Both the position numbers and the translations under genes were made by a program. A stretch of DNA of 9,631 nt from Paracoccaceae bacterium (GTDB lineage Bacteria > Pseudomonadota > Alphaproteobacteria > Rhodobacterales > Rhodobacteraceae), in the NCBI GenBank assembly GCA_027080755.1, contig JALWQC010000014.1, positions 1 to 9,631 on the forward strand, written 5' to 3'. Each line of letters begins with the position of its first letter. The first letter of the stretch is position 1. Of the stretch, positions 4,531-6,731 are shown one piece after another. A model generated the notes under the pieces. That model made no database searches and was not told where the DNA came from. It worked only from the letters and a program-made list of their open reading frames with translations.

Positions 4531-4799
4531 GTTTCGGGACCTTCCACGTGATCACCTTCAGCCTGCACACGGCCCTGCGCCGTCTTCGCCATTTTGGCGC
4601 CCTGTTTACAGGGACCACCCGCGTTCACGGTGTCCGCCTGAGCATCGACAAACGCCGCCTGCCACCCCCCTTGCGCCGCTGGATTCTGGGCGGGGATTAC
4701 GAAAGCGGGGAATGCACCCTTGTGCGCAAATATATCCGGCCCGGGGACAGGGTTCTGGAAATCGGCGCCGGCACCGGACTGGTCGGCATTCTGGCCTTC

Positions 4800-4831
4800 A
4801 GGGCGTAACCCCATAAACCCCGCGCCGCCAG
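4800..4831 (+). repeat. Left terminal inverted repeat of the element
   Basis: Pairs with 5032-5063. The outer 25 bases (4800-4824) match perfectly, then two mismatches (4825-4826), then GCCAG (4827-4831). It contains the in-frame TAA (4806-4808) that truncates the methyltransferase. Confidence 0.92.
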
Positions 4832-4927
4832 TTTGGCAGATTTTCGTCCCGAGCAGGCGCAGGGCCGCAGGAATAGTGGTTCTATTTCAAGGACCTGCAA
4901 CGCACTCGGGGCGAAAATCCGCCAAAC
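4831..4927. repeat. Internal palindrome A of the element
   Basis: Arms 4831-4853 and 4905-4927 pair at 21 of 23 positions (left arm begins GTTTGGCAGATTTTCG). The 51-nt loop can pair further: GCAGG with CCTGC, and AATAG with CTATT around TGGTT. It forms a long branched hairpin in the left half of the element. Confidence 0.85.
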
Positions 4928-4934
4928 CCGAAGG

Positions 4935-5032
4935 GCGCGACCCTCGCTTCATCTCAATGGATCGGGCCGCTTGCAAAGGGGGCCACCCTGTGCGGCGCGG
5001 TCCAACCCATTGATATTTCGCGAGGGTCGCGC
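4935..5032. repeat. Internal palindrome B of the element
   Basis: Perfect 13-bp arms GCGCGACCCTCGC (4935-4947) and GCGAGGGTCGCGC (5020-5032) enclose a second pair, 4954-4970 with 4997-5013 (14 of 17 positions). It forms the second large hairpin of the element and directly abuts the right terminal repeat. Confidence 0.87.
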
Positions 5033-5063
5033 TGGCAACGCGGGGTTTATGGGGTTACGCCCT
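5032..5063 (-). repeat. Right terminal inverted repeat of the element
   Basis: Reverse complement of 4800-4831 except at 5037-5038. It carries an ATG at 5049-5051 in frame with the 3' half of the methyltransferase, which could serve as an accidental restart. Confidence 0.92.
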
Positions 5064-5522
5064 AAACTCAGCGGCCGGACCGTTGCAACCTGCGAGGCGA
5101 ACCCCGACGTCCTGCCCCTGTTGCGGGAAAACTACCGCCTGAACGGCCTGCAACCGCAGATCGTGGCGCCGGCGATTACGGCGGACGGGCGGGATGTGAC
5201 GCTGTATCTGGATCGCCGGATTGTCGGCTCCAGCGTGTTTGACCGCTGCAAGGAGGATGGCAATTTCCAGCCGGTTCAGGTGAAAAGCCGGCCGCTGAAT
5301 GCCCTGCTGTCCGTGCATAGGCCCGATGTCCTGCTGATGGACGCCGAAGGGGCCGAGGCCGAGCTGTTACCCGCCGCCGACCTGTCGAACCTCCGCATGA
5401 TTATCTATGAACAACACCCGTGGCTGTTGGGGGATGCAGCCATGGCCGATCTGCAAAATCTTCTGATGGGGCAGGGCTTTGCCCTGATTGAAAAACAGGA
5501 CGATGTTCTGTGCTTCGGGCGA

Positions 5523-6731
5523 TCAGCGTAGGGCGCGCCAGATCTCCGGCGTGGCATAGCCGTCCGCCCGCATCCCCTGCGATTTCTGCCATGCCTGCAC
5601 CGCCGCCACCGTTTTCGGCCCGATCCGCCCGTCGGCCCCGCCCGTGTCCAGCCCCAACGCCATCAGCGCGCGCTGGATGTCCTGCACCTGTGTGCGGCTC
5701 AGGGGCGGGTCCTGGCGTGGCCAGGGGGTGCTGAAACCGTCCGCGCCCGCAATCCGGTCCGCCAGATGCCCCACGGCCAGCGCATAGGACACGGACATAT
5801 TATAGTGCCGGATCACCTGGAAATTCGGGTAAATCGCGAACACCGGCCCGCGCGCCCCCGCCGGCAGCAGCAAGGCCGTCGCCCCGTGATCCTCCAGCTT
5901 TGCGCCCGAAGCCAGCCGCACCCCGCGTGCATTCCAGAACCGTGCGGAACGGGTGGCGTGTTCCCCCGTCAGGGCATAATCGAAGCCCGCCGGCAGGATG
6001 ACCTCCTGCCCCCAGGGCGCGCCGTTTTTCCAGCCGAGCGCATGCAGGTAATTCGCGCTGGAGGCAAGGGCATCCAGCGGATCCCTGCCCCAGAAATCGC
6101 GCCACCCGTCGCCGTTCCCGTCCACCGCGTATTTCAGGTAGGTAGAGGGCATAAACTGCGTGTCCCCCATCGCCCCGCTCCAGCCGCCCAGCATATGTTG
6201 CGGCGTCACCACCCCGCTGGCCAGAATGCGCAAGGCGGCGATCAGTTCCGCCTCGGCAAACGCGCGCCGCCGTCCGTCATGGGCCGCATTGGCCAGCGCC
6301 TCGATGGTGTAGGTGTTGCCGCGAAACCCGCCAAAGGATGTCTCCATCCCCCAGATCGCCAGCAGAATGTCGGATTGCACCCCGTAGCGGCGCGAAATCC
6401 GCTGCAAGGCAGGGGCCAGCTCCCGCGCCTTCCGCCGCCCCGTTTCGATGCGGCGCGCGGAAACCGCATCATCCAGATAGGCCCAGATCGGGCGCTGGAA
6501 TTCCGACTGGTTCGCATCCTGCGCCCGCGTGCCGGCGTTGTATTTCACAAGGGCAAAGGCGGTATCGAACACATCCGTCGGTATCCCCGCCGCCAGTGCG
6601 CGGTTACGAAACCCCTGTTGCCAGACATCCAGCGAGGCCGCGCGCGCCACGGGGCGTTCCATATCCGCAAGGGCAGGGGCCGCGCCCGAAACCAGGGCAA
6701 GCAGCAACCCGCCCGCTAGTCCCCTGCGCAA
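5523..6731 (-). CDS. Lytic murein transglycosylase, MltB type (GH103), with C-terminal peptidoglycan-binding domain
   Basis: Cleaves the MurNAc-GlcNAc bond of peptidoglycan with formation of anhydro-MurNAc, in the periplasm. From the TTG at 6731 the product is 402 residues: a signal peptide (LRRGLAGGLLLALVSGAAPALA, cleavage expected before DMERP), a catalytic domain with WGMETSFGG (catalytic Glu at residue 130), GAMGDTQFMPSTYLKYAVDGNGDG and NYLHALGW, then a PG_binding_1 domain over the last 60 residues (VQDIQRALMALGLDTGGADGRIGPKT). There is no lipobox Cys, so it should be soluble, unlike E. coli MltB. The TTG is preferred because GAGGTGG lies just upstream and the signal peptide then has normal length. 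A GTG at 6770 gives 415 residues, and an ATG 69 nt downstream of the TTG would remove the signal peptide. Its start overlaps the upstream monooxygenase gene by 16 bp, suggesting coupled translation. Confidence 0.92.
   Translation of the reverse strand: MRRGLAGGLLLALVSGAAPALADMERPVARAASLDVWQQGFRNRALAAGIPTDVFDTAFALVKYNAGTRAQDANQSEFQRPIWAYLDDAVSARRIETGRRKARELAPALQRISRRYGVQSDILLAIWGMETSFGGFRGNTYTIEALANAAHDGRRRAFAEAELIAALRILASGVVTPQHMLGGWSGAMGDTQFMPSTYLKYAVDGNGDGWRDFWGRDPLDALASSANYLHALGWKNGAPWGQEVILPAGFDYALTGEHATRSARFWNARGVRLASGAKLEDHGATALLLPAGARGPVFAIYPNFQVIRHYNMSVSYALAVGHLADRIAGADGFSTPWPRQDPPLSRTQVQDIQRALMALGLDTGGADGRIGPKTVAAVQAWQKSQGMRADGYATPEIWRALR

Follow-up and report, generated by a model that had tools for sequence, protein, structure and literature searches.

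What kind of DNA splits a methyltransferase gene in this Paracoccaceae contig, and why should it fold into three arms? Bacterial MITEs are usually viewed as decayed remnants of insertion sequences (ISs) with a simple stem, and the 264-bp insert in our window (the whole 9,631-nt stretch analysed, to which all coordinates without a locus name refer) had been read from its letters alone as something more: a three-armed palindrome whose folded structure would itself be recognised by a transposase or act in RNA.

A three-armed insert in a methyltransferase gene

Judged by its reading frame, the methyltransferase gene is broken by the insert. The two flanks, joined in silico, form a 240-aa frame, and tblastn alignments span the join in all nine homologous loci tried; the best homologue (L057; 33% identity, E 1e-25) aligns without a gap at the join (AF/KL vs AA/RL, the stroke marking the join). 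The 3' half alone matches FkbM, while the 5' half alone matched no Pfam family. In-frame translational read-through of the insert was rejected, as the window gene's frame stops at codon 3 of the insert; the insert has a stop codon in all three forward frames and no coding capacity. Across the family the expected join is open in 30 of 92 joined flanks, compared with 28 and 36 for two other joins, counts that G+C-rich shadow frames blur. Of 78 placed copies, the window copy and one other seem to be intragenic on both sides.

The three-armed palindrome is real, and the arms located earlier hold in the minimum-energy fold of positions 4790-5073, which is a three-armed junction on either strand; RNA folds add a mini-hairpin at the junction (Table 1). 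The terminal inverted repeats pair over 35 nt (4797-4831/5032-5066, 91% complementary) and arm 1 over 36 nt (4935-4970/4997-5032, 81% complementary). Predicted RNA fold energies for 4790-5073 are -183.7 kcal/mol (z -12.8) for the + strand and -192.7 kcal/mol (z -15.8) for the - strand, and the DNA fold of the + strand has an energy of -104.4 (z -13.0); in each of these three folds, none of 200 dinucleotide shuffles reached the native energy. We read the window element on the - strand, the orientation that places GAAATATC in the first arm.

Table 1. Parts of the window copy and of the gene around it.
Feature	Position	Strand	Details
Methyltransferase gene, 5' half	4548..4799	+	tblastn over joined flanks
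Left terminal inverted repeat / outer stem	4797..4831	+	end type T1, consensus AGGGCGTAGACC, common to an IS5-family element
Left target-site copy	4799..4800		CA here; TA in most copies
Element proper	4801..5062	-	262 bp, GGG...CCC; 264 bp including one TA
Hairpin arm 2	4831..4927	-	apical hairpin AATAG-TGGTT-CTATT at 4872-4886, + strand
Junction mini-hairpin CCCGAAGGG	4927..4935	-	shown by RNA folds
Hairpin arm 1	4935..5032	-	internal loop GAAATATC (5012-5019) / GAGATGAAG (4947-4955)
Right terminal inverted repeat / outer stem	5032..5066	-	
Right target-site copy	5063..5064		TA
Methyltransferase gene, 3' half	5064..5531	+	FkbM, PF05050

Dispersed copies, their ends and their targets

As the sequence-only reading had anticipated, related genomes carry further copies; Thiosulfatihalobacter marinus, Actibacterium ureilyticum and Shimia biformata are among the named carriers. 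blastn found them in four of 61 genomes, the window's own included (G000, G009, G010 and G015). In G000, a 2.2-Mb draft of 528 contigs, there are 64 matching pieces; in the fetched loci at least 17 copies are complete (263-265 bp, with ends that pair), 16 of them with T1 ends like the window copy and one with T2 ends (AGGGTCAGGACC). The same genome holds forms with a single arm (179 and 183 bp) and three armless short forms of 57-58 bp, the latter of which consist of the two ends only (C11:4045-4102, C68:1848-1904 and C297:1239-1295), which are perhaps arm-deleted forms.

A scan for a pattern in arm 1, using one genome per species for 84,980 species, returned 102 stretches; by title, 91 are from unnamed Alphaproteobacteria or from genera that we take to belong to the Rhodobacteraceae, and 11 are from other taxa, all 11 without paired ends. 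Paired ends are present in 83 of 104 pattern matches (one viral match counted), and the 21 others comprise 12 from other taxa or viral and nine at the edges of contigs or stretches. Viral contigs gave a single match, without paired ends, the phages scanned gave none, and plasmids gave six. To escape the bias of the arm-1 pattern, we modelled arm 2 by itself (covariance model R1) and searched 295 genomes of the family, a single genome for each genus; 23 match, our own among them. Copies per genome from this model are lower bounds, with 13 candidates scored. Of 29 loci examined, 22 hold a 260-267-bp element with paired ends, some of them copies already known. One (L309 in G257, 267 bp) has a very different sequence and an end type of its own (AGGGCCTGTTCACACTATT), the third seen in the family, and yet adopts the same three-armed fold.

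Length is nearly constant. Among the 34 complete copies of the four genomes, 27 are exactly 264 bp and the remainder 254-266 bp; in the pattern scan, 42 of 83 are exactly 264 bp and 72 of 83 are 263-266 bp, with the others ranging from 160 to 317 bp. One-arm copies with paired ends account for lengths of 160-183 bp. There is also a longer form with similar ends, seen in L205 (309 bp), L253 (317 bp) and, at 311 bp including the TA on the flanks, the plasmid loci L285 and L288.

The window copy, flanked by CA and TA, had suggested that there is no target duplication, a view that the family as a whole overturns. TA stands on both sides of 72 of 101 copies, on one side of 19 and on neither side of 10; a recount allowing shifted ends gave 70, 21 and 10, the counts being slightly unsure as a few rows are cut one base off at an end. 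On these flanks, a 2-bp TA target duplication evidently exists in the family, the window copy being among the 29 to 31 copies without TA on at least one side. The wider context is YTAR, the habitual target of the IS427 group, at 71 of the 72 copies with TA on both sides (69 of 70 in the recount). The 72 comprise CTAG in 34, TTAA in 17, CTAA in 10, TTAG in 10 and ATAA in one (CTAG 33 and TTAA 16 in the recount). A search with the flanks of L031 found no clean empty site; at the orthologous site, G010 has other DNA beside CTAG, and CACCTAG is again the end of the left gene in its G010 orthologue.

Complete elements that encode a transposase and share these ends do exist; the earlier reading had proposed looking for them. 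G015, a one-contig genome, carries two 849-bp elements (L169 and L173) that have T2 ends and are flanked by TA; their two ORFs, in different frames, match DUF4096 and DDE_Tnp_1 and are assigned to IS5 by NCBIfam NF033580. The ORFs of a G010 fragment do likewise, and T1-ended IS pieces lie at contig ends in G010. One of the latter, used as a query, found relatives in 117 of 198 genomes. Both ends are T1 or T2, with TA on both sides, in nine of 30 IS loci examined, a search that credited TA flanks, missed the known G015 ends in L322 and gave none in the other 21 loci. The nine comprise one T1-ended IS (L319, 950 bp, in G132) and eight T2-ended ISs of 833-909 bp (L321, L330, L337, L340, L343, L344, L345 and L348). 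In the window's own genome, matching ends were not found on the one IS5-like element examined (L145; C68, 2665-3512; 848 bp, TA flanks), whose ends AGGGTCGAGAC/AGGGTTCAAAC are related to but unlike those of the three-armed element. Separately, we note that the same AGGGTTCAAACCCAATCAAG end as in this C68 element also directly adjoins a three-armed copy elsewhere in the genome (L009; G000 C339, right flank).

Since the ends of the three-armed element match those of IS5-family insertion sequences, movement in trans is likely. These shared ends are what points to a transposase; that it would read the fold instead of the ends, as first suggested, is not supported by these results. The element is short and non-coding and has terminal inverted repeats, dispersed copies and a target duplication, as a MITE does; its ends shared with full-length ISs, 2-bp TA duplication, YTAR target and two-ORF partner are those of IS5/IS427. 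We therefore place the insert among MITEs of the IS5/IS427 type and note the strong constraint on its three-arm interior. The evidence for this mobility class is good; that for any role of the interior is not.

In the available part of the description of the IS427 group (IS5 family) in Paracoccus, its members are 832-865 bp long, with short inverted repeats, mostly 2-bp direct repeats and two overlapping ORFs with a frameshift motif (PMC3281130). The G015 partner IS resembles them in size, 2-bp repeats and two ORFs; as described there, IS427-group ISs are autonomous and armless, whereas the three-armed element is non-autonomous (PMC3281130).

End types appear to be exchangeable. Among the 101 aligned copies, 40 are T1, 60 are T2 and one is unassigned, and end type changes only four times on the tree of interiors, compared with a mean of 31 after shuffling. 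In G015, the interior of a T2 copy (L047) agrees at 92-94% with those of four T1 copies, whereas the end bases that define the type do not agree; against L036, also in G015, 93.5% of the interior is shared, but in the end columns that define the type agreement falls to 20% and 33%. An interior like that of T1 copies with other end bases shows that tips have been exchanged.

Covariation and apparent strand symmetry of the fold

The stems change in the compensatory manner that the sequence-only reading had named as a check, and the three-arm interior with its covarying stems is indeed more than a simple MITE. Our alignment (A1) has 101 rows, 34 from BLAST, window included, and 67 from the arm-1 pattern; of the 83 paired-end matches we left out six whose length falls outside 258-268 bp and 10 that repeat rows present before. 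RNAalifold predicts 92 pairs, with changes on both sides in 77. Across the 101 copies, 95.1% of stem cells are paired, compared with 76.6% after shuffling, and none of 500 shuffles reached the native value in any of five measures, a control inflated by the relatedness of the rows. The covariation score is 0.531, compared with 0.191 for shuffled alignments and 0.084-0.093 when partners are slid; this second control leaves relatedness intact but gives an advantage to any structure that, like ours, was predicted from the alignment being scored. All eight helices contribute covariation or compensatory change.

Unpaired positions are also conserved. Since the 67 pattern rows contain GAAATATC...TGARATGAAG by construction, conservation of arm 1 is better read from the 34 BLAST rows and the 22 elements found with the arm-2 model; in the latter, GAAATATC occurs in 13 of 22 at no more than one mismatch (exactly in nine) and GAGATGAAG in 18 of 22 (exactly in 11). 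Unpaired interior columns are better conserved than paired columns (0.87 vs 0.83 in the 34 BLAST rows, 0.84 vs 0.76 in all rows). The loop of the junction mini-hairpin reads CTNCGG, on the - strand in the window, in 71 of 101 copies, is inverted in 13 and takes other forms in 17. Two wobbles are nearly fixed, T-G at columns 174/215 in 75 of 101 rows and G-T at columns 150/237 in 71. Rows of A1 differ on average by 30%, with 1.7 gap openings per pair, or 0.022 per substitution, a ratio that has no neutral yardstick and comes from rows picked within 250-270 bp. Kissing of the apical loops (TGGYY with AACCA) was considered and rejected, loop complementarity being 3.14 compared with 3.16 after shuffling.

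If a single RNA strand were selected, we would expect G-U to exceed A-C at pairs predicted on both strands. The counts of GU and AC at such pairs are 72/49 in the outer stem, 59/44 in arm 1 and 44/65 in arm 2, so that no strand preference is consistent across the three. Where a pair is predicted in a single orientation, the two arms lean opposite ways, and the prediction itself selects such pairs for wobble. Orientation shows no clear bias either, at 19 to 12 relative to tandem genes and 14 to 10 for copies with a single stop-codon case. Given no consistent wobble preference and no clear orientation bias, the constraint looks strand-symmetric, as would be expected of DNA, of RNA from both strands, or of mutational repair of the palindrome. 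In sequence, the outer stem is not followed by a T-run, and the element is therefore not a classical intrinsic terminator.

Gene ends and the role of the arms

Copies cluster where genes end. Using a homemade gene caller, we placed 78 of 101 copies, the other 23 being too near an edge: 34 lie between converging genes, 31 between tandem genes and nine between diverging genes, and four have one side open. In 36 of the 78, the stop codon of a neighbour consists of a T followed by AG, the first bases of the element, and in 12 of them this is so on both sides; at YTAR sites outside elements, in the 102 pattern-scan loci and the window, stop codons occur at 109 of 1731. A gene cut at random has one chance in three of mimicking such a stop codon; 48 neighbouring genes end at this T-AG, and 11 gene ends, in nine copies, fall inside the element in the other frames (both sides of the window copy and L192; one side of L005, L040, L193, L203, L272, L274 and L277). 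Of the six plasmid matches we viewed four; all lie between listed genes, and at least one gene 3' end is 5-45 bp away. Exact placement on a stop codon is seen in none of these four annotated copies, in gene tables that are incomplete.

We consider it probable, overall, that the insert belongs to a 264-bp non-autonomous repeat likely moved in trans by IS5-family transposases, with covarying arms that likely serve as a 3'-end RNA structure for transcripts entering from either side. We propose that transposases of IS5-family elements with matching ends would move the element, that a stop codon would tolerate insertion at its TA since TA and the element's G rebuild TAG, and that the fold would be kept because RNAs from both strands gain a stable 3' end, or meet a barrier, there. 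The rebuilt stop codon would, if true, be a simple rule for harmless insertion. Taken by itself, the step in which the arms act as a two-sided 3'-end RNA structure is tentative, falling somewhat short of an even chance; we favour it because copies gather at gene ends and the constraint is strandless. A bolder version, which we think on the whole unlikely, is that the folded nucleic-acid module is its own unit of selection, keeping arms with fixed loops and 264 bp across the family, swapping its tips to borrow IS5-family transposases (hence three end types) and settling on rebuilt stop codons as a two-sided 3' end; host genes would then be offered ready-made two-sided 3' ends. Whichever reading holds, a family with eight covarying helices over many genera, a near-fixed length, conserved loops and swappable tips makes selection on the structure of a MITE, and the level at which it acts (DNA, RNA or transposition), directly testable.

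An alternative possibility is that the arms are kept for DNA chemistry, with cruciform extrusion pairing the ends for the transposase, such that structure and the 264-bp length are selected via transposition. The near-constant length would follow, as would the lack of a consistent strand preference and the occurrence of the junction mini-hairpin in both orientations (71 and 13 of 101). Against this, armless and one-arm copies with paired ends exist, so the arms were not needed for these copies to have moved, unless they were deleted later; moreover, hairpins are not known to be required by IS5-family transposases. We judge this explanation unlikely, a little more so than the bolder version above.

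Somewhat less probable again is that the matched changes are mutational, template-switching during replication repairing arm against arm (quasipalindrome correction). This, too, would show no strand preference, and there is one suggestive case: L200 and L242, from two Marinosulfonomonas genomes, share an insertion and its flanks and differ at five columns, of which 24 and 254 together make one compensated pair. Such correction should, however, erase internal loops, and the unpaired interior columns are conserved above the paired ones; it should likewise erase fixed wobbles, which persist at 174/215 and 150/237.

It is very improbable that the element is a regulatory RNA gene or riboregulator read off one strand. 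The covariation is like that of structured RNAs, and the CTNCGG junction loop is of the UNCG type, but the element itself has no Rfam match above the gathering cut-off (in the window, L001, L039 and L046), and its copies are dispersed insertions with terminal TA, without clear orientation bias or wobble strand bias. At E <= 1, the only match above cut-off in L001, L039 and L046 is a tRNA outside the element, and sub-threshold matches to anti-hemB (L046) and a snoRNA (L001) are outside it as well. In the window, only an ffh sRNA reaches its gathering score (RF01793, 62.9 bits; 1714-1765, - strand), directly upstream of the - strand ORF at 196-1704.

Lastly, the TA target resembles that of IS630, and a small palindrome behind genes is REP-like, but an IS630-type or REP/RAYT-type mobile palindrome is barely credible given ends that match IS5-family elements. 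Partners of these two kinds were sought in G000, G009, G010 and G015: DDE_3 (PF13358) had no matches in the four genomes, and Y1_Tnp had one borderline match in G000 (23 bits) and none in the other three.

Our search of the open-access literature found no description of this family; the comparisons that follow hold for the parts of the cited sources available to us. REPIN and REP-RAYT elements are also small mobile hairpins, and differ in using a tyrosine (Y1) transposase (PMC3116915, PMC2817692); of the four carrier genomes that we checked, three lack a Y1_Tnp match and the fourth has a borderline one. MITEPye1 of Paracoccus yeei is a MITE from the same bacterial group that is preferentially intergenic and folds as RNA, with IS1182-type ends and a long stem-loop, unlike our element (PMC11578231). 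CIR repeats of Caulobacter and Brucella are likewise alphaproteobacterial and intergenic, with two long hairpin arms, a linker and terminal TA, but they are about 110 bp long with non-pairing ends and a conserved GANTC, whereas our element has 264 bp and paired ends (PMC2229807); GANTC is absent from 93 of its 101 copies. ERIC, Correia/NEMIS, RUP and QMITE2 are small non-autonomous elements whose transcripts fold into long hairpins, as here; the first three also have terminal TA, and QMITE2, in a further likeness, lies mainly in 3' untranslated regions. As described, they are shorter, single stem-loops, unlike the three-armed element, and RUP is proposed to use IS630-Spn1 (PMC2229807, PMC10969869).

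Two minor observations concern the ends of the element. Outward-facing ends meet as CCCTAGGG at 2045-2068 of L172 (G015:1264700-1268800) and at 410-433 of L179 (G010:C270), as if elements had been inserted end to end and then partly lost. Solo 12-bp end motifs flanked by TA/TAG (TAGGGTCAGGACCCTAG, TAGGGCGTAGACCTAG) occur as well, for example in L149, L157 and L163, and are perhaps excision footprints.
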